This document shows, one piece after another, positions 22,030-61,320 of a DNA stretch of 64,000 nucleotides. The notes under the pieces were generated by a model, which saw nothing but the letters and a program-made list of their open reading frames with translations, searched no databases and had not been told where the DNA came from. A program made the translations under genes and the position numbers. The stretch is from Bryoerythrophyllum caledonicum (lineage: Eukaryota; Streptophyta; Bryopsida; Pottiales; Pottiaceae). The stretch covers positions 32,150,734 to 32,214,733 of the forward strand of contig OZ020517.1 of NCBI GenBank assembly GCA_963971425.1, in the 5' to 3' direction. Within the stretch, counting starts at the first letter, position 1. Each line of letters opens with the position of its first letter.

Positions 22030-22225
22030 TGGATAATGCAACAGTGTTACAGGGCGACGCCAACCAGAGTTGTGTTACATGTTTAGAGACTTCGTGTTAC
22101 ATGTTTAGAGGCCCTGTGTTACATGTTTAGAGGTGTGTTTACATGGTATAATTCCTCCAGAACCAGAGACATTTAGAACCCAATGTTGAGAGTTGTGTTA
22201 CATGTTATAACTTTGGATGTTATGT
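22030..22225 (+). repeat. GTGTTACA motif cluster A
   Basis: At least six copies of GTGTTACA in about 190 bp, three of them in a 25-30 bp unit GTGTTACATGTTTAGAG. This is the complement of the TGTAACAC core in other clusters. It lies upstream of the coiled-coil fragment at 22344. Confidence 0.8.
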
Positions 22226-22343
22226 GTTACAGCAGTTTATTCTTTAGATCCATCACATAATATGTATACATTATTACTGATGGATTAGGACGAGCACACA
22301 ATTATTGCGACGCACTGCCAAGTTGAGGGCTTGTACGCAATAA

Positions 22344-22857
22344 TTGCACAATTATCTGGCAGTTCGACTGAGGCAAGCAGCAGTGCTGGCCCATTCAAGG
22401 TCTTCTCGCTGCCGAGGAGGAAGAACGCATCTGCCTTGTTGGAGTGGAAGCTTCTGCGGCCTTGCTTCAAGAGGGACAACTGAAGCTGAACGCCTCCCTC
22501 GACAAGATGAACGCCGAAGGTATGGATGTGGAGGACGCGCTGAATGATGCATACACTGCAGCATTAAGAGAGACAAAACGCCTTCTCCGTGAAGGCGCTA
22601 TAGCGGCAGAATACAGAGTAAAGGCCGTGGAGACAGATCGGTTGTTGGCGCAACTCACCTTGGTACAGGAGGCAGACGCTGCATTTCGAACGGAGGTTTG
22701 TCAAATGGAGTTGGACGTGGCGTCGCAGCGTGCAGCGCACGATGTGACTGCTGCGGCATTGACATGGGACAAGGGTTCTTTCAATGGGCTGCGTTCTGAA
22801 TGTTTGAAATACTACTTTGTGCCGTGTTTTGGTCCAGGAACAAGGGGTTACAGCTAA
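22344..22857 (+). pseudogene. Truncated coiled-coil ORF at the end of a partial motif-bearing element
   Basis: An open frame running through 22390-22790 encodes a charged, Ala/Glu/Leu-rich helical segment (EASAALLQEGQLKLNASLDK, RLLREGAIAAEYRVKAVETD). It then passes into the FVPCFGPGT sequence that is non-coding repeat at 30575-30605. I do not recognise a domain. Heptad spacing suggests a coiled coil, as in the 855-residue ORF at 61408-63975, which is likewise followed by the same 3' module. This may be the 3' coding remnant of a related element. The true start is not identifiable. Confidence 0.4.
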
Positions 22858-23125
22858 GGATTTGAAGGTACCCCATGGCTGAAAGTTCACGGTTCGTGTC
22901 ATGTAACATTGGTCGTAGTCGTGTAGGACTGGCCTGCATCGCCCTGTAACACTGCTCAAAGTCGTGTATCACTGGTTGTAGTGTTCGAACATGGTGCACT
23001 CTGTTCAGATTCAAATACGTGAAAAACAAATTTCCGATAGTCAAGGCGGGGCTTCTGATATCACTGGCCTACGTCGCCTTGCAGCATTGGCCTATGTTTC
23101 CCTGTAACACTGGTCAACCCTTAAA
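22795..23125 (+). repeat. 3' module copy 1 with TGTAACAC motifs
   Basis: TTTGTGCCGTGTTTTGGTCC, then GGCTGAAAGTTCACGG, then several TGTAACATTGG/TGTAACACTG motifs spaced by GTCGTGTA. The same order occurs at 30575-30700 (copy 2) and inverted at 60470-60600 (copy 3). Confidence 0.75.
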
Positions 23126-23149
23126 TGCCGAAGCAACCAGAAATTGGCT

Positions 23150-24780
23150 TCTCCGATGACATTGTTGGATGATAATCAATGTGAACAATTTTTTTTCATC
23201 CATTTCTTTCTAGTGGAGTTCCTCGTATGTACAAGCATTAGATGATGATGAAACTGGCATCATTGAGGTAATCATGTTTTATCCGAGAAAGAAAATGCTT
23301 TTGACAAGGATCTCAACATAGTGAAATTGAGAAACTTCTAGCTTTAGCTGTAGATCTGAATTCAAGCCATCAAAATGATATTTTTTGAATTTGAGTCCAG
23401 CTGTCCATCTAATGAAATGAAGCCAAGGATGTCTAGTTTCCATACCATCTTGAAAATTAAAAAAACACGTAAAATTGAATAAGTTATTGCAATTTGAACT
23501 TGGACCTAAAACCGTGGTTCTAATTTTAGCCGAAAACGGAACTTTCATTTACACCACGAATTTTGGCACTGTAATGTCCACATTTGGTGAAATTTTCAGA
23601 ATCTTTCAGCATAATCTGTATTTAATATGAATTTTCTTCACTTTTTCTTCAGAAAATCACAATAAATTCAAATTTTCACAAAAAAATCTATGATTCTTGT
23701 AACATAATCGGGACATGTGATATCATCTCTGAATTTTTTTCTCCTTCCATTTCTTGTCTCTTCTTAATCTCTTTATTTTACACCAGTGCCTTCCACCTTC
23801 CCCTCGGATAAGTGAATTTTTTGATAACACTAATTATGCAACACCTGCCTCATTTGGGTTATACTTTTGATATCATGTTATACAATAGCTTGTAGTTCTT
23901 TTCTCTATACTTTATTATTCTTCCTTTTATTTTATAGCATCTTGTGTATCCAGATTTGTTGCGCCCGTGAATGTAATTTATTTTAATTATGTATCAATAT
24001 CTTGTCATGTTTCTTGCTTTACTCTGTATATTTTCCTATTCATATTTAAAAAAAAATGTTATTCACTCACGCACCCACATTTCTATTTTCCAAGGCCTTG
24101 GTTTGGGACTTCTGAACACATCATTGCCCTCTTGTTCTCATATGACTGTTTGATTTCTTAATAGTCGATTGATTATGCAAAAGATTTAGATGGTCGATTT
24201 TTGAATAGTCGGTTGCCATGCAAAGGATCTAGATTTTCTACACTGACACTTTTATTTCTCTTCCAATATGATGAGATGTCCACAATTTTTTTTTAAAAGT
24301 TTGGATTTTTTAATTTTTTAATTTTATTTTTGACACAAGTAAAGAGAACCTTTATTGCAAAGGGCTGAGAACCTTTACTGCAAAGGGAATATTCTGGATT
24401 TTGGAACACTTGGGGAGGTCAGTCTCTTAAAAAACAAAATGCAAATAAAGAAGTTTTTAACGCCCTCCGCTTGCCAACCTATTCTAAAAATGGTATTCAC
24501 TCTTACGTCGCGAGGAATTTGGCAAAGTAATAGGTTATACGCCTTAGTTGTGTACAGTATAAACCATTGGATTGCATTCCCGATGCTATGATCAAGGAAA
24601 ATACTCTCTACAAGGACTCGGTATGAAAGACGTGTTAGCTTCCCCTAAAGTGGAAGAGGTGGGGGATTAAGTTGGGAGTGCATGATGGCGCGCGAATTAT
24701 TGGTGGGTGTAGATGGGAGGAGAGGGCAATTTTGCGAAATTTTGGTGTTCCACAGCGCAGTAGGAAATTAGGGTTTCTCG
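23150..24780. other. AT-rich sequence upstream of the FCP1/Ulp1 unit
   Basis: No recognised coding sequence. T-rich tracts and short ORFs only. The promoter of the gene starting at 24895 probably lies near 24650-24890, where composition becomes GC-richer, but no unambiguous TATA box was chosen. Confidence 0.5.
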
Positions 24781-24894: not shown

Positions 24895-27800
24895 ATGCCG
24901 CCGAGGAAGGAGCCGTACGTCGTGCAGGACTTCACAATCGATGCTGCGAGATTCACAATCACCTATCCCAGCAAGGAGAAGTTCGAGGAGCTCGCTTTGG
25001 AGTTGGCAAAGGACGCGCGGGCACCGCTTGCTCCAGGACAAGCGCGGCGCAAGTTTATTTGCGTGCATTGTGGGGATGCAACCTTCTCCAGCAAAAATCA
25101 GTTGAACAACCATAGGTTTGTCACGGGGTGTGAGAGGGCATTGTTGGAGGATGGGCGTCGGGCCAGAATTCTCCCATATCCTCAATTTCGGAGCGGGAAG
25201 GGAAAAGCCACGGAGTTGTTGGCGAAGGACAGGAATGTGGACATTGCCGCCGTGGCAAAGCAGGGTCAGGTTGGGCAGGTAGGAGAGGACATCGGAGGGG
25301 ACGACGAGGATGAGCAAGCTCTGCGAGCGAGAAGGGCTGCTGTTCCGCTCGGTGAAGCGGGGCTTCGTCCGGTTCCCCCGGACATTATCGTGGGTCCGTT
25401 GCCGCCACGAATTGAGAAGGGCGGTCCATCGAGCCAGGGACGGGCGAGAAAGGGAGTGCATCCCGAGGCAGGGCAGGGTTTGCGCGGGAGGGAGGAGAGT
25501 TCAAGGCTTGCAATTGATGCTGTGAAGGGCGAGACTGACGAGGAGGGTCCTAGTGTTCCAGCGCGGTTCACCAACGAATCTCCGATGACCGTGACGAGGC
25601 TTGGTGGAGACGACAGCGCTAGTGGATTTTGGATTCAGGTGAGGGATTCCATGGTTGGGCAGCACCTCGACGTAGGTGATGTGACACTGGGGCGTGGACG
25701 TGACTCGTCTGGCGCCAAACGTTCGAGCACCCATTACATTCGAGAAGGGAAGAGAAGGGTACGCGGAGTGATCAGCGAGGAACATCTCCGCAGTAAAACT
25801 GTAAGTATGCTCGTAGGGTTTAGGGTGTTCTATCGTTGATGTCGTATTATCAGGGAGAAATTTTGGCAGTGTTAATCTGAGCCTCGACGCTGGTGTTACT
25901 GCAGTCAACAACGACAGTGTCGCAGATGTACCAGGAGAATCTGTGCCAAAGATACGATGGGTATGAACCGGGCGAACCCGTGGAGACGTGTAACACTGGG
26001 GATGTTGACAACGCGCCCGGACGTAGCACTGACGACCCCTACGACCTTTCGGCGCGGTGTAACACTGCAGAACGGTGTGACGTTGTGCAAGAGATGGAGG
26101 GTTTAGAGACAAACTATGACTGCAGCGAGCACGTGGGTTCGGACGTGGTTGTGCACGGTGTTGTTTTGCACATCTCTCACACAGACGACACGGCCATGGA
26201 GGAGGGAACGCCTACGGCAGGAATACATGGGCATGTTCCAGGGGATTCCTCCGGTCTTGCACCGAATACCAGTGGCGCACATACTTCGGGTGAGCTGGCA
26301 CTTGAACAGGATGAGGGGCTGCATCGGTATTGGGCTACCGGAGTTGGAATGTGCAGTGATGCACACTACAACGCCATGAAGGTAGGGGGGGTATCCGAGC
26401 GCATGGAGAAGTTGTTGGCTGGGCGGGATGCATATGCGGAGGACGTCCGAGACCGGGAGCTTGCAAAGTCACGTGCGATTACGCTGCTGCCACGCCCGGT
26501 GGAGCCAATGACGGTGCCTGGTTTGTACCATCTGAGGAGCGTCTCACCGGAGGTCCCGACACCGTGGAAGTGGGAGCACCTTAGCGGAGATGAATTCGTT
26601 CGGGAGTGGGACGCAGTATTTCTCACCGACAATTTCAAGGGTGTCTTCTATTCGCTCTATGGGTGGTGGAATTCAACAAAGAAGGTAACGGAGTTCCCAG
26701 TTCGGTCCCCGTGTGAACCGAGCATGGCTGCGCTGCCGGTGTTGCATTCGTCGTGAACTAACGTCGCATGCGGCCTGTTGATTATGCAGCACGATTCAGC
26801 AGTGGATCCGGCCGTGAGAGCCGAGGTGTCGAATTCCCTCGAAGGCCTTGCTTGCAGCGTACGGGAAGGACGGCCCTTCGAGGCGGCCCGTGCGCTGGGC
26901 GATTACATTCAATGGGGACACGATGAGCGGCGGTGGGAAGTGCAGAAGTCGCAGTACGAAGGGCTGCTCAAACAAGCCATCGCTCATGCAGAGATGGCAG
27001 TCGCGATAGCGTCGGCTAATTACATGCGAGAGCATGCAAACGAAGAAGAGGCGGCTCAGTGGGATTGGTGTCCGATATGGCACGCAATCACTGGGTTGGA
27101 AGAGATTAGAACGAGACTCCCACCCCTTCCCTTCCAGCATAACAGTGAGTGGAGTTCTGACCCTTTCACATGATTCCATGGCAGTGTTACGCACCTTCGG
27201 TGTTATGTCATCTTGTTGGATTGTATCCTCTCATTGTTCTCCAGAAATGTTCCATGCGGGCAGTGTTACAGGAGTTTCAATGTCACACACTGTTGGTATT
27301 ACACATTTGCGATGTTACAAATCGCAAGCGTCATGTATCCGCAGTATCATGAGGGTCCAATCTAATGTTTGTGCGACCGTGTGGCAGCGACCGAGGCGGA
27401 GGCCGTGCGGTCGCTCCTGCTGTCAGGGAGGGTGGGGCCGGCCGATCCAATGCCCTTTGTACGTGTCCTGAGAATGGTGTTCGATGATCGCTACGGACAA
27501 TTTCGTACCCTTTCCTGCCCCACATTTGGGTTGTACAGGGAGCTCGTTGTGCGTCTGTGTACTTCTCCACAGTTTAGCCGTGCCATATCGATGTTTGTGG
27601 CTAGAGGGCATGCCTATTTTGTGGGGATCCTACAAGGGCATGGGGAGGAGTTGGAACGAGAACTCCTCGCGCAGGTGGCGGCAGTGAGATCAGGCGAGGG
27701 AGGTGATCTTGTCAAAAGTGTTATGCTGTGGGCGCGTACAGTGAGGCTCAGGGCGTTGCAGGACATAGCGTTGCACCGCCCCGCGATGTTTCAGAGGATG

Positions 27801-28454
27801 TGGATGGCACGGACCAGCGAAGTGTGGGATGAGGTCTCACAGGACTGGCGCACTGCCCTGTCGACGCGCGAAGATCGTGACCTCGGGCATTTGCCAAGTT
27901 TTTGGACGCGTCCTCTAGGGGATGCTCTTGCAAAGAAGAAAGCGTCGATCCTGAAGATGGTGGAGGAAATGGTGGATGCGATGGCTCAGGAGGACGAAGG
28001 TAGGTGGCCTAGAGGAGACGCGCACCGCACCGTCCGTGTTCCGATGAGGGTCGCGGGCCCAATGGAGGTAGACCAACGTGAGCAACGAGATGACAGTGTT
28101 GCACCCCTGGCCCTGGCAATTTTGGATGCGGAGGAAGGTGGGAGGGGGGAAGACAGTGTCACAGTTTTGGACACTAAGATTCTGCCCAGAAGAGAAGGTA
28201 CGAGGGGGGGGTCCAGTATTGCACCTTCGGCCTTGGTGATTGACAATATAGACGAAGTTGTGGGGCGCCAAGATGGTGACACGGTGATCCCTGATACACA
28301 CGAACTCGCGAGGGGAGCATCCAATGTTGCACCAGCCGGCCCGAGGCGAGCAAAGGCACGCGGGACGACCGCTGCTCGGTCCCAGGCAAAGAAGAGGACA
28401 CTCTCGACTCGGAACATGGTGGAGGGTGATGCCAATGGACGCGGCGTTAAGTAG
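24895..28454 (+). CDS. Zinc finger N-terminal part of the FCP1/Ulp1 element protein (four exons, ends at TAG)
   Basis: Exons read as 24895-25800, 25905-26684, 26790-27144 and 27388-28454. All have GT-AG borders (GTAAGT, GTAACG, GTGAGT donors; CAG acceptors) and phases that agree. The start is the ATG of MPPRKEPYVVQDF. Residues about 58-82 hold a C2HC-type finger (FICVHCGDATF...NNH...TGC). The remainder is acidic/basic and disordered-looking, then helical (ALGDYIQWGHDERRWEVQKS), and ends in 20-residue repeats rich in DSVAP-type starts. No known enzyme domain is visible in this part. The final TAG (28452-28454) is in frame with the next ORF, which has the FCP1 and Ulp1 domains, so the natural product may be one protein of about 1,560 residues. 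Its role is unknown; a DNA-binding, element-specific function is inference from the finger and motif arrays. Confidence 0.6.
28085..28340 (+). repeat. 60-bp periodic coding repeat built on the AGTGTTGCAC motif
   Basis: Copies begin near 28091, 28152, 28212, 28271 and 28320 with GACAGTGTTGCAC, GACAGTGTCACAG, TCCAGTATTGCAC, GTGACACGGTG and CAATGTTGCAC. The encoded protein repeats every 20 residues (DSVAPLALAILDAEEGG, DSVTVLDTKILPRREG, SSIAPSALVIDNIDE). The motif is the same one arrayed outside the gene. Confidence 0.7.
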
Positions 28455-30290
28455 GGTGTGGTGGCGCCCAAAAAGAAGCTGTTGATCTTGGATCTGAACG
28501 GTCTGCTGTTGGAAGCAATTTACAGGTCCGCCTCCGTAGTCGGACCTGCCGCTCACAAGGTTGTGGGTAACTTCAACGTCTACATTCGCCCGGGGTGCCA
28601 GGAGTTCGTGAAGTTCTGCCTCAAGCACTTTCAAGTTGCGGTGTGGAGCTCGGGGATGAAGGAGAAGGTTTCTGGGCTCGTTGACGTGGCATTTGGCGAG
28701 CACAAGAAGGAGCTCCTATTTGTATGGGCTCAAGACAAATGCAAGGTTACGACACTGAGGGACCCCAAGAACGATAGGAAGGCTGCGATGTTGAAGGAGC
28801 TCTCGGTGGTGTGGGCAGACGAGAAGGGGAGGGGGTTCAATCAGTCCAACACGCTGCTCGTCGACGACACGCCGTACAAGGCGTTGAGGAACCCGTGGAA
28901 CACTGCCATTCATCCCGAACCATGGACAGCGCGTGAGACCAAGGACACCTCGTTGCAGTTGATGCAGTCGTGGCTTCTAGGATTGTCCACGGCGGAGAGC
29001 GTCCAGCAATACGTGCTGAAAAACTCGTTTGGATCGCCTCCGCTGAGCCCGTCCAGTGAACACTGGTCTTACTTCACAGGCCTCCACCCTTGGGCACCCG
29101 GGCTCAGTTCTGCTAGTGTTGGCGTGGGCCCGATAGCAGACAAAGCAGGGAGCTCACGGTTTGCCGCTCCTGATCAGGTTTGCATCGCTTGTAACACCAC
29201 GTCCGGTCCACCAGCACCTGAGAAGATGCCGCAAAGAAAGGGGTCAACGGACCCCAGTGTTACATGTGAGGTGCATCCTAGAGGCTTGCAGAAGCAGGAG
29301 TTCAACGATGAGTGTGTCCGAGAGGCGTGTTTTAATCTCCGGTTATTGTCCAGTGTTACAGGTCCATCTACGTGATTCCGGTCGAGTACAACAAAATCAG
29401 TGTACAGGACGTGTTCGATGGTCTCCGAATTGAGACCATGATAGAGGGGCTGTCCGGTGCACGGGGGTCCAAGGCTGTCTCGCAAGGCGTTACATTCTAC
29501 CCCAACCACAAGAAGGAGGTCACCATCGCCGTGAAGGAAGTGCGCGCGCTGTTGAGCGGTCAGGAGTGGCTGGGCAACAATATCCTGGACTTCATGCTGG
29601 CAACCTATTGGTTTGCGTGTTCCGAGGAGCAGCGCCTAGGCCTCCACATCGCCTCTACATGGTTCTACAGCGCGGTGGACATGTATGGAAAGGGGAAGAA
29701 GGACGCCTCACAACTAGGCCGCAGCTACTTGAACATCTCGAACGCGGTCGAGGGAGCCGCGCTTGTTGACATTGTGGTTCCTTACTGGAAGGACCGGCAC
29801 TGGTCTCTCTACATCTTTGATCGAGAGGCGACTTACCACCTGGACTCCCTCGGATCTTCCGGACATATTCCCGACGAAGCCAACGTCCTGTTCGCGAATT
29901 TGGTTCATAGGGCATGGCAGAGTTTGCGAGGACCGACGCAACACAACGTGCCCAGATACGTCGAAGTCCCAGTTGCGCAGCAACACGGGACATTCGAGTG
30001 TGGGTATAGCGTCATCCAAAATGTCCGCACGTTTTTTGAGGTACGTTGTCTCTGCCTACATTGGTTTCCAATGCAACATGGGTTGTAACACTGCCCACTT
30101 CAACGTGCAGAATCGCCTGAGACCAGAAAAGTTCGCGAACCCGACCATGACGAGGGCGTTGATGAGCGACTTGGATACAAACGCGATCCTGAAAGAGATG
30201 TTCCATTTGGTTGCTGTGGAGCTTCAGCCCAACACGACTCGCAACGGGTACGACCCACCCGTAGGCAGTGCCGGCATATCATCCGGTTAG
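28455..30290 (+). CDS. FCP1-like HAD domain fused to a Ulp1/C48-type cysteine protease
   Basis: Exons 28455-29177, 29354-30040 and 30111-30290 join in phase 0. The first encodes an FCP1-homology HAD fold: KKLLILDLNGLLLEA (motif I), VYIRPGCQEFVKF, VAVWSSGMKEKV (motif II) and NTLLVDDTPYKALRNPWNTA (motif III). Motif I reads DLNG where active phosphatases have DLDxT, so the second Asp is Asn; phosphatase activity is uncertain. The second exon encodes a Ulp1-type (SUMO/NEDD protease, clan CE) domain with RHWSLYIFD (His), YHLDSLGSS (Asp) and PVAQQHGTFECGYSV (Gln and Cys), so the triad is complete. The last exon adds RLRPEKFANPTMTRALMSDL and stops at 30288-30290. There is no ATG before the FCP1 core: the frame continues upstream into the preceding exon through one TAG. 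Combined HAD plus deubiquitinase-like modules in a mobile unit are unusual. Where it acts in the cell is not known. Confidence 0.7.
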
Positions 30291-30356: not shown

Positions 30357-30660
30357 GGCAGCGTACGCGGCAGTGTAACCGTGGACACCAAAAGTCCCAC
30401 TTAACTGACACTTTCAATTTTGGGTTCTCCAACGGTTATGGACTCAGCAAAAAAGTCACAGCCTGCCATTTACCTTGATATTCTGGTTGAAAACATCGTT
30501 ATACCATGGCAATACTGCCTACAACACTACCTCTCATCTCATACTAGTGGCAGTCATGCCCTCGCTGCCCCCAAAACACTATTTTGTGCCATGTTTTGGT
30601 CCAGGAACCAATGTCCACGGTGGACGATTTAAGGGCACCTCGCGACTGAAAGTTCACGGC
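30357..30660 (+). repeat. 3' module copy 2
   Basis: Non-coding sequence after the Ulp1 stop: GCGGCAGTGTAACCGTGGAC, AAGTCCCACTTAA, TTTTGGGTTCTCCAACGG and TTGTGCCATGTTTTGGTCCA, up to CTGAAAGTTCACGG. It occurs inverted at 60480-60800 and in part at 22795-22890, so it defines a family-specific 3' flank. Confidence 0.8.
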
Positions 30661-30905
30661 CAGGGTCGTGTAACACTGGTCGCAGTCGCGTAACACTGGT
30701 CGCGGTCATGCAACAGTGGTCGCGGTCGCGTAACACTAGTCGCAGTCGTGCAACACTGGTCGCAGTCGCGTAACAGTGGTTGCAGTCGTGTAACACTGGT
30801 TGCAGTCGTGTAACACTGGTTGCAGTCGTGTAACACTGGTTGCAGTATTAATCGCAGTCGTGTAACACTAGTTGCAGTATTAATCGCAGTTGTGTAACAC
30901 TGGTC
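30661..30905 (+). repeat. 20-bp minisatellite of the TGTAACACTG motif, about 11 units
   Basis: Units of GTCGTGTAACACTGGTCGCA with variants (GTCGCG, CAACAG, ACTAGT, GGTTGCA) run head to tail, interrupted twice by GTATTAATCGCA. Unit length is 20 bp. This is the densest motif array in the window and directly follows the 3' module. Confidence 0.9.
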
Positions 30906-31082: not shown

Positions 31083-31430
31083 TCACTACTACAAATGGGG
31101 CTGTTTTTGACACTCTTTTCGACACTTTTGTGTTAGAAAAAGTGTCGAATACAAGAAAGTAAGAGTGTCGAATTTAGGGTGTCTTAAAATGTGTCGAAGA
31201 TAGTGTCAAAAATAATGCCGAAGAAGGTGTCGAAGATAGTGTCGAAAATTATGTCAAAGAATGTGTGGAACAAAGTGTTGAAAATTAGGTCGAAGAAATC
31301 GTTCAAGAAGATGTCGAAGAATGTGTCAAAGAAAATGTCAAAGACCATATCGAAGAAATTGTCGAAGAATAAGTCGAAGAAAGTGTCAAAAAATATGTAG
31401 AAGAATGTAAAAAAATTGCATTTTAAAAGC
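31083..31430. mobile_element. CACTA element end with TGTCGAAGA subterminal repeats
   Basis: CACTACTACAAATGGGGCTG is a typical plant CACTA terminus. It is followed by more than fifteen diverged copies of a TGTCGAAGA/GTGTCGAA unit spaced about 15 bp apart (31105-31400), which also give an artificial (VSKIM)n-like ORF. The opposite end was not found in the window, so the element's extent is unknown. The oxygenase gene at 31609-33450 may or may not lie inside it. Confidence 0.6.
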
Positions 31431-31608: not shown

Positions 31609-33450
31609 TCAAATCTTGTTGGAGTTGCTTTGACTACATAATCGTTTTTGTGTCTTAGCAAGCCCCTCTTGTTCCAAGTTTATAGCATCAATCTTCTTGA
31701 CCATGTCCATCGCAGCTTCCAGTGGCCAGAAGCATTCCACTTGCATACCAAATTTGATACTACATGTAAATCATATGTCAGAATTCATGTACTACATGAC
31801 TAGTAACATTATGTAAATCATATGTCAGAATTTGCAAGCCCATTGACAGTGCTCTACAACATATTACTATTCGTATGAAAAAATTTCAATAGCTTCAAAC
31901 GGCTCCAAAGATAGCGTAAAAAAAGTCTTCTCTTTATATCTGCAAACAACATATATGAAATTAAATTACATTCTTCTAGTTGAAATAAAAGTAATAAAGT
32001 ATAATAAACTTGTAATGAAATAATTATTTTAAAATATGAGTATGAAATAAATATAAATTGAGAAATTTACCATAAACTGGGAAATGGTCAAAGTTGAATC
32101 TCGAACTTGTTGCTCATATATTGCTTTCTTCTTCAAAAATCCTTCGCGGGTTTCAACAATTTTCATCTTGCCATCTGCAGACTCATATTGAATGATGCCA
32201 GGGCCTCCAGGATGAATTAGTCGGGCAAGTTGTCGATAGAGGGAGCATTTTTGGAAAAATGCAATTCCTAAGATGTTTGTCTTCTGTAACCGCCTTGTAC
32301 AGTGTATATATTGGCCAGGACGGAAACAAAGAACATCTCCATGCTTTGGAACAAATGACACTCCAGCTTCTGGAAATGCAAATAAAACCGGTTCTATCCC
32401 ATTTGGAACAACATCTGCAAATTAGAAATCAGCTAATCAATTATTCAAATTTAAGTGTACTCAATACAAGATACAAATAAAAATCACAACAAAAACACAT
32501 ATAGAAAAACAAAGGTGAAGAACTTTAGAAGTACCTTCTCTGAGCCAAAAGATAAAACCGTAGCCATAATCATCATCATCCGTGTGAGGCCTGCAATTAA
32601 AATCTCTAGACACGCTGAACGATGAAAAAGGCCCTCCACCAATCATGGCGTCATCACCATGAAATCCTTCAGCTTTTAAAATATCATCTAAATGCTCAAA
32701 GATGCTCCCGTAAGACCTTCTTAAAATTTGACAAACATATCTAGCAAAGTCTTCAGAAAGACTGTAGCAATTGTGGTCATCTTGCGCAAACCACCATGTG
32801 TTGCCATAGGCAGACCGCATACCCCATAAGCACATTCGAGTGCTGCCCTTCGCCACTGACCGAGTAACACTCCTCCCGTGCTGCTCTAGATATGAAGCAA
32901 CTTTCGTAATCACATTCAACTCAGTAGGTGTGAAAACATCATCTCTCAAATCAAAAACTTGAAGAGGAGAAGGTCCACACTCAACTACAGTAACTGGACT
33001 TGTCACTTTACAAAGTTGAACCAACTGAGCATTTAATGCATCATTGGTGCTCTCAAAATCCACCAACTTGAGGGTCCTCTTCACAAACACCTCCTTGCCA
33101 GTTTTTGGTAACAAGATAGGTTGGACCCTCACCTGGTTTACATGGCGATGTGCATACTTTTCAAGGTGGTGTTGTAAGTCATCCACATTATTTGGAAGAC
33201 TCATTGAACAAACCTCGCAATAATATGTAGAGCGGGCAGGGAAATAATTTAAACCATGCTTAGCAAAAAAAGATCCCAAAAGCAATAGTTTTTCTTTCCT
33301 CTTATGTTTTGACTCTGAATTAAAATGCTCTGCAAGGGCTAATGGAGTCTTGCGAATCTCACATTCACACGCCTCGCACCATTCCATGTCATACTCCGTC
33401 TTCTTGCTAGAGCCCTCATCCGCTCCCCTCGGCCTCCTAGTCTTGCCCAT
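31609..33450 (-). CDS. Zinc finger plus TET/JBP-like 2OG-Fe(II) dioxygenase, gene 1
   Basis: Four minus-strand exons: about 33450-32535, 32414-32071, one at about 31930-31885, and 31762-31609. Start MGKTRRPRG. Two U1-type C2H2 fingers at residues about 25-55 (CEACECEIRKTPLALAEHF then H) and 75-105 (YYCEVCSMSLPNNVDDLQHH then H). The oxygenase core has PHTDDDDYGYGFIFWLREG (HxD), continuing after the first intron as VSFVPKHGDVLCFRPGQYIH with CTRR (distal His and the 2OG-binding Arg), then NILGIAFFQKC. This order and the IFWL and HCTR signatures match the 2OGFeDO TET/JBP superfamily, which oxidises methylated pyrimidines in DNA in other organisms. Frames are open throughout exons 1 and 2. The acceptor of exon 3 is uncertain. 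Activity on DNA is inference. The upstream 640 bp is duplicated. Confidence 0.65.
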
Positions 33451-42596: not shown

Positions 42597-43188
42597 TTAC
42601 ATGAATATCTTCTAAGTGTTTCAACACGTTGTTGCTTTTCTACAAAATTTTGATCTATTTGGACTAGTTGGCGCCACCAAGGTAAAGGACGTCTGCCACT
42701 AGCAATATGTACAACTAAGTACTTTAATTTCATTTTATTTCCAAAGTCATAGTATAAAAAGGGTTCTAAGTTTGTTGTGCAAAGTCTTTCTTCAATTGAA
42801 TTTCTTGAATATTCATCATTTACATTTGATAGTCCTTCAAATATTTCGTGGAGTGTCCAATCTTGTAATTCTATTGGCACACCTTTAGTGTCCCACTCTG
42901 CTTGCATCTTGATAATGAGGTTCTTCATTTTCATTTGTAAATATGGACCCCGATCTTCCATTACAGTAGTATGCAACAATGTTGGTGATTGATGAAGGTC
43001 TTCATCTTGTTCAGTTGGTTGTGGAAAATGGGCATCATCTTGAAAATTTTGCATGGGTGGAGAAGTTCTGTGATATTGTAATTCAATGTCCATTCTATGA
43101 TGACGTTGTTGAGTCCTATAATTCACAAACTTGAATCCAGCTTCTTCACTGCTCAATCTACATTTAGTACATCTACACTTCACTTGTA
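42597..43188 (-). pseudogene. Transposase-like N-terminal fragment, cut by the Tc1 insertion
   Basis: The frame encodes VQVKCRCTKCRLSSEEAGFK, FVNYRTQQRHHRMD, an acidic Gln-rich linker, then MKNLIIKMQAEWDTKGVPIE and GRRPLPWWRQLVQ, and stops at 42597. A CxCxxC cluster followed by an HHRMD basic stretch is typical of the start of CACTA and KDZ-type transposase genes. The Tc1 element inserts (TA) just before CRCTKC. The catalytic DDE region was not found inside this CACTA element. Confidence 0.4.
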
Positions 43189-45967: not shown

Positions 45968-45969
45968 TA

Positions 45970-48475
45970 CATAGAACACAAATAATTGATTAACTACATG
46001 GTATTTCCTTGGTCACTTGCAACTATGAATTGGATGTAATTGTACAAAAAACAATAATGAAGCTCTGCAATGTATGATGGATAAATAGTAGGTCATCCTC
46101 TAATGAAAGCATGCAATATCAAAATTAATGTTAGTGTAGATGATTGTCGTGAACAAGGAATTTGAGCCAAACGAGCCTTGGGATGTGAACATCGTAAGCT
46201 TTTACTTTGAAATCTAGAAAGAATACATGAAGTAGAAAGAATAGCAAAATTATAGCCATGAATTGATAATGGTGTGAATTTTAAAGTAATTGATTTGTAT
46301 TGATAGAAATATCCTCCTCGAAACACATAAAAGAATTTTACATATATAAAATAAAAATTCCTAATAGAAGGTTTGAGGTCTACCTCGAGTTTATGTCAAA
46401 TATGATGAAGTAGATGTGGGGTCTACCTCAATTCCGCCATAAAAATAGTAAGATAGATTTGAGGTCTATCTCAGGTTTACCTCAAGTGTAATTTTCGAAA
46501 GAAACAAAAGATTATGAGCATTTTGGGAAAGTAATATTTCACAACATTATGGGATGTCAAAATAATTTTTTTTGGATGATGTGTTTGTCTTTATGCAAAG
46601 GTTAGAGGTGAAGAAGAAGAACGCAGGTCCTTGGATAAGGCCAACCTGAAGAAAGTGTCTGTTTATTCCGCCACTTAGACCTTGCCCACCAGACAAAGAA
46701 TTAGTACTATGGAACTAACTCCCCCTCCAGGTTAGAGTAATATATATGGACTTGTGATGATGAAGTAATTTTCTAATTTTCAAATGTAGATTGATGGAAG
46801 CATCTTTTTTAATAAAGGAACTCATTGGACTTATTTTTCAAGGTACTTCATTTACAATTTTGGTAAATTATTTTTATTTTTAATATTGAAGAGGTGAAGA
46901 TTTGTTTGCTACTTTTGCCTCACCATTAGTAGTAATCATTGAAGTTCTTTTATGCTTCACTGTACTAGCATATAAAGCAGAGCAAAATCATTTCATGTCG
47001 TATTTTTTAATGAAATCCAATTATAAAATCTTTTAGCAAATTCAGTAGTATACATCCTTCATAAATTTAGAAACCAAAAACGTTATCAATTGCAGAATTA
47101 TGGTGCTTTCAATTTGAAAAGATCTCAATAGAATATTTAATCAGTAGTAGCTAATAAAGATTTTACTTTACAACCCATGGTGCATTGTGCTTGAAATTGG
47201 AGACATGAAATGACAAATTTGAAATTTATAGAGGCTTTTTGATTACATGGATTGTCGTCTGATTCATGTTTGTTTTAATATTAAAAATCATGTCGATCAT
47301 TTTGATAATAGCATGGAGAATCAAATTTATGGAGCTAAGATGGTATAATACCCTTTGTTGTAGAAGTGCAAAGAAATTCCACATGAAGAAAAGCAACAAA
47401 GGTAATTTAAGAACCTCCACTTCTCTAATGTCACTTTACCAATATCTTGAACATTATGTCATTTTTGCAAAGAAGTCTTTTTGGTAGTGTCATAGCGGTT
47501 GGATATGTGATATTGTAAGGGTGATAATGACTTTAGTAGTGTGAATGCGAGAATAAAATTCTTTTGACTCCAAATTCACTTTTATTTTAGAACTTGTTAT
47601 CTTTTGCAATTTTTGCAGATTTTGGAGTTTTCTTGTTCTCCTAATCAGAGAATTTTCCTAGGGTTTTCCTTCCAAGAGTATCTTCATCTAGAAAATGTAT
47701 ACATTATTTACAGTGTTCAAGGTTTTTACTAAGTATTATTATAATTAAAAAGCACTCTAGAAAAAATCAACTACACTCCTAAATAGGCAACAAATAGTTC
47801 AGGTGTTTCTTGCAATTGCCACATTATACATTATACTTGTGACTTACTAAGTGGGCACGCTTCAAAGTTTTCAAGGAATTCAAAATCAAATACTAACTTG
47901 TTTGAATTGATGAAGTTCCTTTTATGAGTTAAGCTCAAATGCTATAGAAATTGTTTTAAGATTAAATTATAATACACACAAAAACAAGTGAAAAATAATT
48001 TCTTTGCTATGTGGCGACTTTTTCTAACTACTTTTTTTGTCATAGGGATCGCATGTGAAATCTAAAAATATATTATACAATCAAAATTCAACTTACAAGG
48101 AAGTTGTAAACAATGAACATCCATTGGGAAAAAAAACATGGGAATTGTTATTCCATGTACAAAAAAAATTATTACTACAAATCAATAGAAGCATTTGTAC
48201 AGTCTTAGTCCACAGTTAGAAGTAAGCTTAGATTGAAGTCTTGAAAACAATATTATTATTGTAGCATAGAAGAGTGCATAACACTTACAAAAACCCTCTT
48301 AGCTACGCAATACAATGTGATCCTACATGGATCAACCATATTGAACAACAATAAGCACAAGCATACAAAAATGAGTGCTATAAGTTGTAGTTATTGAAAT
48401 AATAATTTCTACAATATCCAAAATCATTCACAACAAGAAAGGTTGTACAAAATGGTAGTGTTTTTTTCCAGAAAT
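45970..48475. other. AT-rich interior of the CACTA element
   Basis: No recognised gene. Only short AT-rich frames are present. It may hold introns or upstream exons of the interrupted transposase-like gene, but none could be supported. Confidence 0.5.
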
Positions 48476-50039: not shown

Positions 50040-52290
50040 TGTAAATTTTAGGCATTAAAAATGGACGAACGCACTTGTGATATTTGTGGACCTAGGTAAT
50101 AACGAGCGTGTATATTCCACCCCGGATACTGGCGTGTGGTGGGAACAAATGCAGGTATGTTATTGACTATGTTACATGTAACTGTAAAAGTATGTGCACA
50201 AAAATACGGAATGTACCTGGATAAGGAATCATTTAATATAGTTTTATATTTGTAGGTTATTAAACTTATCATTTATATAATTAATTGTTGGCTTTTGTAG
50301 AAGGACATCGAGAATAACCCAAATGCAGTGATCGCGCCATTGATTTTGTATAGTGATGAGACATCTCTATCCAAAAACTCCAAAGTAGTGGGACATCCTA
50401 TTGTGATGAGTATTGCAAATATTGCATGCGAGAACCGATATTTGAACGAGGGACACTGTTTGTTCGCAATACTGCGAGTACTACCAACGCGTTCATCATC
50501 ATCAATTGAGCGGGTTCAATTACTTCAAGATTGTTTGGAATGTGTACTGGAGCCTTTAAAACAAGCTAGTTTTGGGTACGCCAATTCTGTTTCATATTAT
50601 TGCATTTTGTTATATTAATTATTTGGTAGAAGATATTGAATATGATAAAGATTTTATTTTCATTTCAGAGTTCATTTTGGTATAACGAACAGAATACTAA
50701 ATTACCAATGATTTTTGTTGTAGAGGCATTGTCATATGTGATCCATTTGGAATTGAAAGACTTGTGTATCCAAGATTATATGCCTACGTTTGCGATTATC
50801 CAGAAGGGAGCAAGGTGAGAAATTGAAGATGTCAATTTGAACTATATGAATGAAATAAGAATATATTGTTGATAAAAACCATATGTTTGCTTAAATCAAA
50901 TGTATCATTTGAAAACATGTCTGGTTATTTATTCATGGAAGGGTATTATGTAGGTAACATGTACATTTGGTTCTCAAAGGAGTAACTATCCTTGTAGCAT
51001 GTGTACGTGCCCAAAAGATGCATTGAGAGATGTTAATATTGATTAAGGAGCTCGAACTGAAGAATCTATGAAGGATATTCTACGCATGATACAAAATGCC
51101 AATACTTTAGCAGCAGCTCAAATATCAAAGGAATATTCAATGCATCAAGTTCTTGTAAGTGAAGTCATTGTTTGAATTAAATTTCATTCGAATTACAAAT
51201 TGATGGTAAATCTTTTATATAAATATATTACAGGTGTTTATTACGATAAAGGAATTTTACACTGGCTTAGAGCACATTAAATTATTTTAGTTCATGCGAC
51301 TGATTTTTGAATTATAGAAGAATTATGTAAGTATTACAATAAGTAAGTCACTATTCGATTAACGTATGTCATGTTTGTGTTTGTGACATTTTATGTAGTG
51401 TGCACTTTGGGGATTCGCTAAAGGAGACACAAAATATGGAAATCCATATCTGGCGGTCAATGTTGACATGCTTCATCAAGCCGATCTTGGATTATTCAAA
51501 ACAATTATTGGCATATTGAGATCATGTGCTAAAGAACAATCACCAGCAATATTACCAGAAATGGATAGGAGGCTTTTACGGATCAAAGAATCATCAAGAT
51601 TTTATAAATTTAGAGTGCCTGGAACCCAAACAGGTGGTTATTTTGTGTCAAATGCAAATTTTGCAGCATTCGAACACAGATCTGTGTTGCAGGTACATAT
51701 TATAGTATTTATTTTACAAATTAGGTTCAAAAATTTACAAATTAGAGTATTTGAATTTATATGCTATTGTTTGTAGAACTCACTTGTATAGGAAAGAAGG
51801 ATGTGACCGTTTTATGTTTGTTGGAAATGTGCAGGTTTTGGTTTTTTGCATGATTGGTTTATATACGGACAACATCATTGGAGCTATTGTGAAATTTGTG
51901 AAGTGGTATGAAATAGCATGCCGTACAAAGGAATACACAGAATCCATGTTAGATGATATGAATCGTTTGATGCAAAGGTGCTCCTCAAACCAGTTGTTAT
52001 CTTTTGATATTTTAGAAGTTTTAAATTTTCATGTAATTGATTTGAGATGGTGATGCAAAGTACTTCATTAAACATTCAACTAGGATGATTGCAGGGTGGT
52101 TATTGCTTTCATACAAGAATTCTCTCAGTGGCAAAAATCAGGGTTTCAAATCGTGAAAATTCATGCCATGTCGCACTATTCTATGGCTATACGGAGATCC
52201 GGGTCTCCATTTGAATATAGCTCTAAGATGTATGAGCATTTACATTTGAATATAGCTCTAACATGTATGAGCATTTACACTTGAATATAG
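50040..52290 (+). pseudogene. Plavaka/KDZ-type transposase, decayed
   Basis: Plus-strand exon pieces in order. About 50301-50575: NAVIAPLILYSDETSLSKNS, GHPIVMSIANIACENRYLNE. About 50745-50814: LVYPRLYAYVCDYPEGSK. About 50953-51155: CTFGSQRSNYPCSMCTCPKD. About 51400-51691: KYGNPYLAVNVDMLHQADLG, then TGGYFVSNANFAAFEHRSVL. About 52096-52250: KIHAMSHYSMAIRRSGSPFE. This is the order of conserved blocks in Plavaka-type transposases of the Kyakuja-Dileera-Zisupton group (SDxTxLS, GNI, DYPE, MLHQxDLG, HxxxHY). An in-frame stop after RDVNID and breaks after 51780 show decay. It lies between the two TET/JBP-like genes, about 17 kb and 6 kb away. Confidence 0.65.
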
Positions 52291-55749: not shown

Positions 55750-57690
55750 ACATCCTACATGATATGTTTTCTAATCCATCCAAATAAATTCTGCAGCAGT
55801 CATGGGTCATTAGAGAACACTGTGGATGCACATCCTGAATCCTTATTGTTCTCTGAGGATTCCCTCCCATGTCAATAAATATGTCCATAATTTCTATGGT
55901 TATAATTATTGGGCGGGAGGGTCCATGGTGAGACACGAATTTTAAAAGATGGATATGGGGAACTATCTCAAGGATTTTCAGGCTCTAGGCTATCCCAGTT
56001 GTAGAGCACTCGCCTACATCTCCCTATAACATTGTCCGAAGTCGTATATTACTGGTCTTAGTCGTTTAGCTCCAGCCTACGTATCCTTGTAGCACTGTCT
56101 AAAGTCTTGTACCACTAGTCTTAGTTGTTCAGCACCAGCCAACGTGTCTCTGCAGCACTATCCAAAGTCGTGTAACACAGGTCTTAGTCGTTTAGCACCA
56201 GCCTACGTATCCTTGTAGCACTATCTAAAGTTGTGTAACACTCGTCTTAGTTGTTTAGCACCAGCCTAAGTGTCCGTGTAACACTGTCTAAAGTCGTGTA
56301 ACACTGGTCTTAGTTGTTTAGCACAAGCCTTCGTTGCCGTATGACACATCCTGCACGACATGTTTTCTAATCCATCTAAATAAATTCTGCGGTAGTCGTG
56401 GGTCTTTGGAGAACAGTGTGGATGCACATTGTGGAACATTATTGTTCATCGAGGATTCCCTCCCACGTCAATAAATATGTCCATGGTTTCTATGGTTATA
56501 TTTATTGGGCGGGAGGGTCCACGGTGAGATAGATATTTGGAAAGATGGATTTTGAGAAGTTTCTGAAGGAATTTCAGACTCTGGCCTTTCGTAGTCATAG
56601 AGCGCTAGCCTACGTGTCCTTGTAACTCTGTCCAAAGTCGTGTAACACTCGTCTTAGTTGTTTAGCACCAGCCTAAGTGTCCGTGTAGCACTGTCCAAAG
56701 TTGTGTAACACTGATCTTAGTCGTTTAGCACCAGCCTTCGTTGTCGTATAACACATCCTGCACGACATGTTTTTTAATCCATCTAAATAAATTCTGCGGT
56801 AGTCGTGGGTCTTTGGAGAACAGTGTGGATGCACATCGTGGAACCTTACTGTTCATCGAGGATTCCCTCCCACATCAATAAATATGTCCATGGTTTCTAT
56901 GGTTATATTCAGGGTTGTTCTGGCGTCCGTCCGTCCGGCTGTCTGTCCGATAGAGGCTGTTGTCCGTCCGGTAGAGAATATTCTAGAATATTTGGATATG
57001 TTTGGGTATATTCGAGTATATTCCTATAGATTTGAGGTATATTCTTTGGAATATTCTAGGCATCTGTCCGGTAAGGGTGCTGTCCGTCCTGTCTGACTGT
57101 CCGACTGTCCGTCCGTCCGTTGTCTTTAAGCCCCTGTCCGTCTATGTAGACAACCCTGGTTATATTTATAGGGCGGGAGGGTCCACGGTGAGACAAGTAT
57201 TTGGAAAGATGGATTTTGGGAATTATCTGAAGGAATTTGAGACTCTGGCCTTTTGTAGTCATAGAGCGCTAGCCTACGTGTCCCTGTAATAGTGTCCAAA
57301 GTCGTATAACACTGGTCCTAGTTGTTTAGCACCAACCCACCTGTTCGTGTAGCATTGTCCAAAGTCGTGTAACACCAGTCTTAATCATTTAGCACCAACG
57401 TACTTGTCCCTGAAGCATTGTTGAAAACAATGTAACACTGGTATCTGTTGTTAAGCACTAGTCTACGAGTTCCCGTAACACTGTCAAAAGTCGTGTAACA
57501 CTAGTTTAATCATTTAGCACTAGCCTACGTGGCCCTAGAGCAATGTCTAGAGTCATGTAACACTGGTCTTAGACGTTTAGCACCAGCCTGTGTGTGCCTG
57601 TAGCACTGTCTAAAGTCATGTAATACTGTCTAAAGTCATGTAATACTGTCTAAAGTCATGTAATACTGTCTAAAGTCATGTAGAAGTGGT
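55750..57690 (+). repeat. Tandem TGTAACACTGG satellite with three interspersed 220-bp copies
   Basis: Units of about 65 bp (AAAGTCGTGTAACACTGGTC, then TTAGTCGTTTAGCACCAGCC and a TGTCCTTGTAGCACTGTCT spacer) run at 55990-56340, 56600-56750 and 57260-57690, many degraded. Between them a 220-bp sequence (CATGTTTTCTAATCCATC... to GGGCGGGAGGGTCCA) occurs three times (55750-55970, 56340-56560, 56750-57220). The third copy is split by a hAT MITE. A 20-bp unit TAATACTGTCTAAAGTCATG repeats near 57600-57680. Confidence 0.8.
56910..57158. mobile_element. hAT-type MITE, 249 bp, 8-bp target duplication
   Basis: Ends are CAGGGTTGTTCT and AGACAACCCTG, a short TIR of the hAT CAGGG type, flanked by GTTATATT at 56902-56909 and 57159-57166. 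Comparison with the uninterrupted copy at about 56480-56520 confirms the insertion. The subterminal parts are rich in TGTCCGTCCG units on both sides. Confidence 0.85.
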
Positions 57691-57889
57691 CTATTTTTAA
57701 AAATATTACTGTAGTGTATTGTACAAGAAGTGAGAAAGAGAAAATAGCGGTGGTTGTTGTGAGCACAATGTGAGGGAATTATTTGTAAATCTTTTGTTTG
57801 CAAGATTATGATACAAAAATTGTTGAATGGATCATGGAGAGTAGGAGTTTGATATTCTTCATGAAAATCTTATGTTTTTTCCCATATTA

Positions 57890-59700
57890 CATTGTAGATT
57901 TCCAAATACGGTACAATTATGGTGTGGAATTTGCGACATTCCATGTCCAACAGCCTCCAAGTTAGATGAGCACACTAATAGTAAGGGGCACATAGCTAAA
58001 TTACGAAGGTATAATGTTTTCCCAGAGAAGGAAGCAGAAGAATTTGCCATTTATTATGTATCACAACCAAAGTCCAGTGTGGTACATGAAGGTATGATTC
58101 TAAACTATTTAATGTGTGTCAATTCTTATTATTTTAAATTGGAGTAGATTTTCATAATTTTTTCTACTACGTACAATGTGAAGTTGAAGTTGAGATTGAG
58201 TCTAATTTCTATGTTGCTATGTGTATTACAGATCAAGGGCAGTGTAGGCCAGATACAAGGTTTTGGTGCAAAGTGTGTTGCTCACCATCAAATGATATTA
58301 AGAGCTTCCATGACCACAATTGTGGTGTTAAGCACAAGAACAACCTTTTGGGATTGTACCTGCCAGAGGATCATGGTGTTTTTGAGTTTTGTGAGGAATA
58401 TATTATGACTCCATTCTACTTTTCAGAATACAAGGGTATGTTTTTATCAGTGTTATTACACTTTAAGACATGGTATGAGAAATGTTTACAACCCAGCATG
58501 ATTTATAAGGTATAATATATACTCATATTATTATTTATTTCTCTTGCAGCTCCAAGACCAGTCCAATATGAGGTACCCCTAGTTGGGTTTGATATCCTAG
58601 CTTCATTCAAGGCTTCAGGAATTTCAATTCCTTCTAGTGTGCGGAAGGTCTTGAAGGTTAAGAAGTTTTGCGTTTTGACTAAAGAGGAGCGGTCAACCTA
58701 TGATAAGGACAAAGCTTTGGAGGATTTGGGTGAAATTCACCACTCCGTGGTGTTAGTCGATAATAACATTGTTGCTGGCATGCTAGTGTTTGATGAAATC
58801 CCTTCTATTGAATGTGCACACATTGAAGAAATTAGCAGAGGCATTTATGCTAGTGGTGGAGCAGTAAAGCGTGGTAATACGAAGGGGTCTGACAGGATTG
58901 TGATGTGCGGTTGGAGGCAAAATATGGGGAAAAGAGTTGACAATATCGATGCATTTGGAAGGTTAGTTACAACCCCGTGTTCTTTTATAAAGATTTGTAA
59001 ATGTTTGTAAATTTGTAGATTTTTAAATTTTTAAAATATTGGATCTGCAAATGCAATGTATTTAATTTGAATTTGCATTTTCATTTTTGATAGGTACTCA
59101 CATGGGATGAGAAGGAATTCCAAGAAGGAGAGAGTAAGAGGGGAGGAGATTGAAGTCTTGGGAAATTACCTAATCAGTGATTTGTTGGCACCACATTTGG
59201 AGCGACTTTTTCCCAACTTTATGAAGCATTTGAATTTGTTACTGACTGAGGATGCATCCTCCATGTTATTGGGGACAATTGGGGGCCAAAGTTTGACGAC
59301 ATTGGCCATCACATCAAATTACTTTGCCCTGCCACATCTTGATCTTCAGGATTTAGGCTTTGCTTTTCTTTCATGGTTCATAAAAGGTATAGTACACGTG
59401 ATATTATTTTCATGAATGCCGATTATTTTTAAAGTGTTCATCTTGATGCTAGTTGGAATGTGTTTTACTTGTAGATGGGCACATCGCTAGATATGTCAAG
59501 TGTGGAGGAGAGTTTATCCTACCTGAGTACAAACTTTTTGTGACACCAAAGGATGGTCTAATATTCGCATTCTCCACAAGCACTGTTCTTCATTGTACAA
59601 GGGTTGCTATTGGATATGATGTTATTGGTATGTCATGCTCTGCAAAAAAAATGTGATTGACAAAGCTTCTGCGAGAACCCAAGAGATAAAACAATATTTT
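57890..59700 (+). CDS. Zinc finger plus TET/JBP-like 2OG-Fe(II) dioxygenase, gene 2
   Basis: Plus-strand exons with GT-AG borders: about 57894-58091, 58232-58435, 58550-58961, 59094-59396 and 59475-about 59700. Two U1-type fingers: LWCGICDIPCPTASKLDEHT then H, and FWCKVCCSPSNDIKSFHDHN then H. Middle region VPLVGFDILASFKASGISIP. Oxygenase core: YFALPHLDLQDLGFAFLSWF (HxD), then GGEFILPEYKLFVTPKDGLI and VLHCTRVAIGYDVIG (distal His and Arg). This repeats the architecture of gene 1 at 31609-33450. The GGEFxLPEY and HCTR signatures fit the TET/JBP superfamily. Near the end a run of eight A bases shifts the frame before VIDKASARTQEIKQYFDD, either a true lesion or a homopolymer error. The first exon and ATG were not identified. 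Confidence 0.6.
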
Positions 59701-60140
59701 GATGACCGTAAGTATTCTTCTTGCCAATCTAGTTTTGAAAGAAATGTTTTTACCATCTCTTGATTATTTGGTTCTATTATTCCACGAATTTCATGAACCC
59801 ATTTGGGTGAGAGATTTCTTTTTAACACCGGTTTCTGTTGTTTTTTATTTTGAGAATTGGACAACAGAGGAGGTATTAAGGCAGCAACTTCAGGATGGAG
59901 CGACGGAGGTGGAAAGATCATCGTCATCTACTCCGGAGGCTATCAAGACTTATGTTAGGAGGTCGAAGGGGGCTATCCAGACTTACATCGGGACGTCAGG
60001 GGGTGATGTATAGAATCCATTTGTTTTGAGGATTATCCTACTTTTGTTGCTGCCAATGGGATTTTTTCTCTTTCGGAGTGTAGGAAAAATGACATTGTGT
60101 TCGATTTCTAACCATATTACAAGAGTAGACATTTTTTCCC

Positions 60141-61320
60141 TCGATAGTATAGGTGGATTTAGACACAGGGAAAGACTCAATTATGGAACCTTCTTGTTTT
60201 GGTCACCATCAACTGTCAACTGATCTTGGAATAAATGTCAAGAGTCTCCCAATTCCGAGCAGCCACCCAATTGCAAATCTCTGTGATTAAATTCGAAACA
60301 ATATTTGTTGAGTTTCATTCGTGATTCCGCATCTTTCTGCGTGAATGATTCTTAGGTAATTGACCTCGGCTGCCTCTACCTTGGATCACAACTTCCTTCG
60401 GGGGCAACAACCAGTGTTACACGACCGCGCCCAGTGTTACACGACCACAACAACTATTACACTACAACCAGTGTTACATGGCTGCGACCAATGTTATGTG
60501 ACCCTGGCCATGAACTTTCAGTCATGAGGTGTCCTTAAATCTTCAACCTTGAACCTTCGTTCCTACACCAAAACACGGCACAACGTAGTGTTCTGTAGGC
60601 AGTGAGGGTAGGACTGCCACCGATAGAAGATGAGAGGCAGTGTTGTAAGGAGTATTGCCACGGTGTAACGGTGTTTTCAACTACAATATCAGTGTAAATG
60701 GCAGGCTGGGACCTTTTGGCTGAGTCCGTAACCGTTGGAGAGCCCAAAATTGGAAGTGTCAATTAAGTGGGACTTTCTGTGTCCATGGTTACACTGCCGC
60801 GTATACTTTTTGTGTGCCACCTTTTCCGTCGATAGTATAGGCGGATCTGAACATAGGGAAAGACCCAATCATGGAACCTTCTCATTTTGGTCACCATCAA
60901 TTGTTCGAGGGAAAAATGTTAGAGGCTCCCAATTCCGAGCGGCCACCCGATTCCGAATCTATGTGATCAAATTTGAAACAATATTTGTTGAGTTTCATTC
61001 ATGATTCCGCGTCTTTCAACGCAAATGATTCTAACATGCGATGTCATTCGAGTCCCCGAGCGGCTTAGGTGATTGACCTCGGGTGCCTCTACCTTGGATC
61101 CCAACTTCCTTCGGTTTAGGACCAGTGTTACACGACCGCGCCCAGTGTTACGCAACCACGAACAGTGTTACACGACCACAACCACTATTACACTAAAATC
61201 GGTGTTACACGGCTGCGACCAGTGTTACACGACCACAACCACTGTTACACTAAAACCAATGTTACACGACTGCGACCAATGTTACATGGCTGCGACTTGT
61301 GTTACCCTTACTATCATCAA
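60141..61320 (-). repeat. Inverted 3' module copy 3, partly in a 688-bp direct duplication
   Basis: TCGATAGTATAGG to CAGTGTTACACGACCGCGCC occurs twice with a period of 688 (from 60141 and from 60829). Between them, 60480-60800 is the inverted counterpart of 30357-30660 (for example GCCCAAAATTGGAAGTGTCA against its complement). Clusters of GTGTTACACGACC at 60405-60500 and 61115-61310 are the motif in reverse orientation. On the minus strand this follows the ORF at 61408-63975, as a 3' flank would. Confidence 0.8.

Follow-up and report, generated by a model that had tools for sequence, protein, structure and literature searches.

A recurrent 10-bp word, TGTAACACTG, marks a gene complex of three open reading frame (ORF) families in the moss Bryoerythrophyllum caledonicum. 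The complex was analysed in a window of 64,000 nucleotides (C4:32150734–32214733, 140–204 kb from the end of the 32,354,469-bp contig C4) and, genome-wide, in the 437-Mb assembly. The plastid psbB protein fits a land-plant source, scoring ∼1054–1070 bits against CP47 of Arabidopsis and other seed plants and ∼1006–1014 bits against green-algal CP47. The complex lies mostly near contig ends, and we call it subtelomeric because of this position. Family 1 (gene1) encodes a zinc finger–FCP1–Ulp1 protein, family 2 (gene2 and its diverged copy TET-a) joins zinc fingers to a TET/CMD1-like 5-methylcytosine (5mC) dioxygenase, and family 3 (gene3) is a large ORF related to one beside a Ty3-type pol gene elsewhere. 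An initial annotation had assigned the word to one mobile family. This is not what we find: the motif belongs to a complex and not to one transposon, recent copies are related by long segmental duplications, and no terminal inverted repeat, target site duplication (TSD) or transposase was found for the complex. We tentatively suggest a self-targeted counter-silencing system, in which zinc-finger proteins encoded by the complex would recognise the core, directing 5mC oxidation and deSUMOylation to the locus.

The density of the core is far above expectation. The window holds 25 exact sites and 57 at up to one mismatch, compared with a mean of 4.89 and a maximum of 10 in dinucleotide shuffles (0/100 reach 57). 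All but three of the 57 (those at 3738, 14551 and 52816; thus 54/57) begin within 22.0–30.9 or 56.1–61.3 kb, in agreement with the clusters first described. The repeat unit is 22 bp at 22.07–22.14 kb, 20 and 32 bp at 30.66–30.90 kb, 63 bp at 56.0–57.6 kb and 20 and 57 bp at 61.1–61.3 kb. The core is thus common to all arrays while unit lengths and flanks vary, its information content across arrays being inflated because the sites were picked by their match to it. The 3′ module of gene1 (30364–30760) has an inverted copy (82.6%) at the 60405–60500 cluster. Scattering of the motif through gene1, also noted initially, is equally clear: the coding exons contain 4 exact sites, 8 at up to one mismatch and 17 at up to two, where 500 synonymous-codon shuffles give means of 0.15, 1.23 and 6.23 and never reach the observed values. 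The tested coding stretches of gene2, gene3 and TET-a contain no site at up to one mismatch. Exon sites 28094, 28154 and 28214 are spaced 60 bp apart, and part of the enrichment may stem from tandem repeats that became exonic.

Genome-wide, a 30-base array pattern allowing up to 3 mismatches gives 52 matches and its reversed control none; one of 35 bases, taken from the 63-bp unit, gives 82, again against 0. The excess for an exact-pair pattern with an 8–12 base gap is weak (8 versus 4), which we attribute to degeneracy of the arrays. Grouped by eye, the 82 matches form 13 clusters: five lie upstream of gene2, seven lie within 0.8–1.3 kb of a gene3 paralogue match (an adjacency read directly in the three fetched loci), and one, C7:31400265, has no gene2 or gene3 family ORF. 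The 20-bp type pattern identifies 12 loci, 11 of them with gene1, gene2 or gene3 ORFs or fragments; the exception, at C6:6.03 Mb, has non-coding homology only. Linkage of arrays to related ORFs, a test set beforehand, therefore holds for 12/13 and 11/12 loci of the two types. Viewed from the genes, arrays lie 3′ of gene1 in 6/6 copies (copy E has just 2 sites, at one mismatch) and upstream of gene2 in 5/5; the fifth gene2 copy, fetched later as a test, has 22 sites at up to one mismatch within the 2 kb upstream. Six control loci (L029–L034, 53 kb) contain 2 sites.

Gene1 and gene2 lie ∼27–34 kb apart at the end of C4, at C1:1.3 Mb, at the start of C2 and at the end of C10. Locus pairs are 98.7–99.2% identical over their common fetched stretches, which suggests that segmental duplication spreads the complex. 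We rejected a single transposon with defined ends, given that the copies show nested insertions and segmental duplications but no shared termini. The complex genes are under purifying selection, with dN/dS of 0.12–0.68 in 13/13 comparisons.

Interest in the arrays is raised by the TET-like enzyme that accompanies them, the zinc finger (ZnF)-TET/CMD1-like genes at 57.9–59.7 and 33.5–32.1 kb being absent from the initial annotation. Gene2 matches the Pfam Tet-like family PF20515 (29.4 bits, cut-off 27; E-value 9.6e-7), and CMD1 is its sole phmmer match in the PDB at E≤10; one further search gave a second match at E 1.1, which is noise. A profile of four TET-like proteins matches CMD1 at 7.7e-11. 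Residues H351, D353, H407, T409, R410 and W364 are invariant in 4/4 aligned proteins and map, by eye, to CMD1 H345, D347, H397, T399, R400 and W358; the Fe ligands H345/D347/H397, together with W358 and T399, are accordingly kept in all four (residue roles, including base contact by D350, are from PMC7854593). The D350 position is D in three proteins and N in L029, and R418 is replaced by K in all four. The T337 position differs in three of the four, so the co-substrate cannot be assigned. At sequence level, these proteins have the double-stranded β-helix domain, HxD…H iron ligands (4/4) and profile match of the TET/JBP family. The first gene2 finger matches Pfam below cut-off and the second was seen by eye.

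TET-a is only 20% identical to gene2, and its PF12851 match, like those of E_TET and L029, is below cut-off. It is convergent with gene1, an arrangement of ZnF-TET gene and gene1 seen at two loci, the window and locus E (C1:19 kb). Gene2 has five copies genome-wide, and one TET query gave at least 36 matches at ∼30 loci, a lower bound from which TET-a is missing. We also note a dispersed TET-like family (L029 2681–7999 and L030 2634–7365), 94% identical over 4.2 kb, in which the zinc finger is degenerate, lacking one cysteine in L029.

Besides decayed copies, gene1 has six that are near-complete and 89–100% identical across the FCP1 part. The 24895–28454 product had been proposed as a candidate motif reader. 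A weak zinc finger is indeed present, but the product as delimited is peculiar to the window: the TAG at 28452–28454 that ends it is missing from the other five copies, where the corresponding frame stays open for 652–669 aa, through FCP1. The FCP1 catalytic motif is DLNG instead of the usual DxDx, making phosphatase activity doubtful, and the domain is possibly inactive. The Ulp1 domain scores 24.6 bits (cut-off 20.7) and has the His-Asp-Gln-Cys set of Ulp1/SENP C48 proteases, His and Asp aligning to SENP2 (7.7e-4) and Gln and Cys being read in the sequence. Host-like FCP1 genes (L033/L034, 45–46% identity) have neither a Ulp1 match nor the motif. FCP1-domain ORFs are hugely multi-copy in this genome (2258 first-look candidates, 150 scored). 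Two such loci, L031 1–6311 (C9:1.10 Mb) and L032 25–6335 (C8:8.14 Mb), have 6.3 kb in common at 99.4%, including an FCP1 ORF (6e-15); L032 additionally has a weak Mutator-transposase-like ORF (0.046).

For the gene3 family, 93 of 583 first-look candidates were scored, giving 94 matches. In paralogues L037 and L039 a single in-frame stop interrupts the reading frame, and L038 is broken into shorter segments. The one dispersed relative fetched (L040 1–6722, C1:25.48 Mb) is a 1156-aa ORF without a clear Pfam family that follows a Ty3-type pol of the same strand at a distance of 1.4 kb; no Ty3-type pol is present in the fetched flanks of gene3 at loci F, G and H. Features of the window are collected in Table 1.

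Table 1. Genes of the complex and motif arrays in the window
Feature	Position	Strand	Basis or remark
Motif array, 22-bp units, upstream of gene1	22030..22225	-	Motif and repeat-unit scan
Motif cluster upstream of gene1	22900..23125	+	Motif scan
gene1, N-terminal part	24895..28454	+	One C2H2/C2HC-like zinc finger exon (Pfam below cut-off); further exons of no assigned function
Motif sites in gene1 intron	27182..27330	-	Motif scan
gene1, FCP1/NIF domain	28455..29372	+	PF03031, 2e-20
gene1, Ulp1/C48 SUMO-protease-like domain	29336..30287	+	PF02902, 2.5e-5
Motif array, 20-bp units, 3′ of gene1	30661..30905	+	Motif and repeat-unit scan
TET-a, two C2H2 zinc fingers and TET-like dioxygenase	32100..33450	-	Fingers recognised by eye (weak Pfam matches); PF12851 under cut-off (2.3e-4); two exons joined by eye
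Motif arrays, 63-bp and 20-bp units, upstream of gene2	55990..57690	+	
gene2, two C2H2 zinc fingers and TET/CMD1-like dioxygenase	57899..59653	+	Five exons, joints by eye
gene2 exons, approximate	57899-58090, 58231-58434, 58550-58962, 59095-59385, 59475-59653	+	5′ end not found
Motif cluster between gene2 and gene3	60405..60500	-	Within inverted copy of gene1 3′ module
Motif array 3′ of gene3	61115..61310	-	
gene3, 862 aa in window, runs off end	61412..63999	-	No Pfam family over cut-off

In the counter-silencing model, the TGTAACACTG core would be the putative binding site of a sequence-specific protein that the complex itself encodes, most likely a zinc-finger protein: ZnF-TET (gene2 or TET-a) or ZnF–FCP1–Ulp1 (gene1). 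The ZnF-TET/CMD1-like genes are the best anti-silencing candidates besides the zinc finger encoded from 24895. Arrays at either end of a gene, with sites ∼20 bp (two turns of the helix) apart, could gather the reader; the TET/CMD1-like domain would then oxidise or otherwise modify 5mC, the Ulp1 domain would remove SUMO, and genes lying in silenced subtelomeric chromatin would remain expressible. The sequence supports the arrays, their linkage to ORFs, the kept catalytic residues and purifying selection on the genes, and from these we infer binding, the identity of the binding protein, enzymatic activity and loss of silencing.

Several observations weigh against this model. The gene1 zinc-finger exon carries one stop in copy A, and gene3 carries one stop in F and two in G. 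The gene2 fingers could bind RNA, their weak Pfam matches being to jaz (dsRNA-binding) and zf-met fingers. Seven arrays adjoin gene3 paralogues without a nearby TET match, in a search that gives a lower bound, and the dispersed TET-like family of L029 and L030 lacks arrays, with just 2 sites over 16 kb. The gene1 coding sites are no better conserved among five copies than random coding 10-mers (P = 0.35, 0.37, 0.48, 0.70 and 0.08) and could therefore be relics of exonised arrays.

The inferred methylation history also counts against the model. The gene2 body is CpG-poor, with an observed/expected (o/e) ratio of 0.43. The CpG/non-CpG transition ratio between copies is 2.0 for gene1, 3.7–4.0 for gene2 and 3.7–4.8 for gene3, compared with 2.4 and 2.5 in two unrelated repeat pairs (L029–L030 and L031–L032, respectively) and 1.7–4.0 in flanks of the window locus W and of A, and CHG transitions are raised too. 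The CpG and CHG excess shows past methylation of the loci, no less for gene2 and gene3 than for other repeats; such past methylation would fit an arms race and would fit plain silencing too. We set aside hypomethylation, as judged from CpG depletion, because the pattern is mixed and does not support it: CpG o/e is 0.74–0.95 over 22–32 kb versus 0.34–0.65 over 12–22 and 42–48 kb, equally high values (0.86–0.95) occur outside the motif clusters at 6–12 and 34–38 kb, and the arrays themselves range from 1.28 and 1.22 (30.66 and 61.1 kb) to 0.41 and 0.57 (two others).

The main alternative, which we regard as a real possibility, is a passive subtelomeric satellite: tandem repeats of 20, 63 and ∼494 bp would spread by segmental duplication and gene conversion, and the arrays would flank genes merely because both are subtelomeric. 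The near-identity of locus pairs favors this, as do extended higher-order arrays, with a spacing of 493 bp at C4:32.10 Mb and of 496 bp at C9:49–63 kb, and the location of 4/6 gene1 and 4/5 gene2 copies no more than ∼0.2 Mb from a contig end, with the rest at C1:1.3–4.4 Mb. A satellite does not readily account for one 10-bp core recurring in units that differ in length and flanks, or for single core sites on both strands in gene1 exons and intron, above the level of synonymous shuffles. It is also conceivable, if improbable, that the core is a host transcription factor site and the arrays are promoters or enhancers without a role in counter-silencing. Their position directly upstream of gene2 in 5/5 copies favors this, but arrays also lie 3′ of gene1 and gene3 and motifs occur in gene1 exons. 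That the arrays are subterminal repeats bound by a transposase, like the degenerate repeated subterminal motifs of CACTA and hAT elements that those near the gene edges here resemble, is very improbable, as no transposase ORF was seen travelling with them, none of 138 matches to PF10551 (Mutator-like element, MULE; 150 of 384 candidates scored) lies within 30 kb of an array locus (the nearest in this set is ∼32 kb from locus I), relatives of a Plavaka-type fragment at 50.3–52.0 kb are not linked to gene2, and the gene1 copies have no common termini or TSD around them.

Other mobile DNA is present in and around the complex. The Plavaka-type transposase fragment spans 50301–52050 (PF18759, 8.8e-10 at 50301–50615), and the 51399 ORF near it is 99% identical to a relative at C11:14.54 Mb; we discarded the fragment as a partner of the complex because its relatives elsewhere are unlinked to gene2. 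Tc1/mariner-like transposase pieces at 43757–44786 (DDE_3, 2e-15; HTH_Tnp_Tc3_2, 1e-13) sit between inverted repeats (43185–43765 and 45390–45971, 96%), and these ORFs (43.8–44.8 kb) were excluded as a separate element. A 5.2-kb insertion in locus H was likewise rejected as a family unit: it starts with TG, ends with CA and shows, by eye, a duplication of 5 bp, and is therefore long terminal repeat-like. Positions 31087–31405, in a stretch absent from loci A–D, hold a CACTACTACAAA-type end and, after it, degenerate GTGTCGAA repeats, an arrangement resembling a CACTA transposon end.

If the counter-silencing model is correct, array-targeted TET-family enzymes would constitute a second plant demethylation route, aimed by DNA sequence, beside the glycosylase-based ROS1/DME route described in PMC11065753. 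Arrays and TET-like genes together may let repeats shield themselves from plant silencing, which would open to experiment the question of how selfish subtelomeric DNA stays expressed, and would provide a natural locus-specific 5mC editor. Titles and abstract openings, mostly from non-subscription journals, revealed no array-linked TET/JBP system in mosses, Selaginella or other land plants.

Comparison with known systems bears first on the likeness to VANDAL21 and its protein VANC21 drawn initially. VANC has no known catalytic domain. VANDAL21 is described as having a short motif arrayed in tandem, with the copies in one orientation, in non-coding DNA near element genes, and as showing tandem-repeat evolution (PMC5735166); arrays of a short word by element genes are the VANC-type organisation (PMC5735166, PMC10398659). 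The moss complex likewise has dense same-orientation arrays of a short motif in non-coding DNA beside its own genes. As first stated, CAGTGTTAC is one base away from the VANC21 consensus YAGTATTAY, a likeness that is suggestive only, about one random 10-mer in 700 being as close by a rough hand estimate. The AGTATTAA variants reported at two places in the 20-bp array are present near 30.84 and 30.88 kb. A closer fit is CAGTATTAC at 57619, 57639 and 57659 (the + strand reads TGTAATACTG), three tandem copies of a single 20-bp unit. Kinship is not supported. No MULE transposase lies within 30 kb of an array locus among the 150 of 384 candidates scored; Pfam scans of the given window ORFs contain neither DUF1985 nor DUF287, and a genome-wide search for DUF1985 gave 0 matches, though control genomes likewise gave none. 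The complex differs further from VANDAL in having its motif also in exons and in carrying TET-like and Ulp1/FCP1 domains. The organisation is therefore VANC-like, yet the locus is not a VANDAL element. It is possible, though less likely than not, that the subtelomeric complex independently evolved sequence-addressed counter-silencing, as a catalytic analogue of VANC with ZnF TET/CMD1-like enzymes and a ZnF Ulp1 guided by a 10-bp word in arrays, introns and exons.

The enzymatic side of the model has parallels elsewhere. CMD1, the Chlamydomonas reinhardtii TET homologue that modifies 5mC and writes 5-glyceryl-methylcytosine (5gmC), is the nearest solved relative of gene2, which keeps the Fe ligands and most of the compared base-contact residues; PMC12458080 ties CMD1-made 5gmC to demethylation in Chlamydomonas. 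Unlike CMD1, gene2 has N-terminal C2H2 fingers, is multi-copy and is flanked by arrays. Fungal DNA transposons carry TET/JBP genes that have been proposed to counter silencing (PMC12730594), and they share with the moss complex the presence of a TET-family gene on repeated or mobile DNA. The complex differs from them in that no linked transposase was found, in its plant genome and in the motif arrays that accompany its genes.

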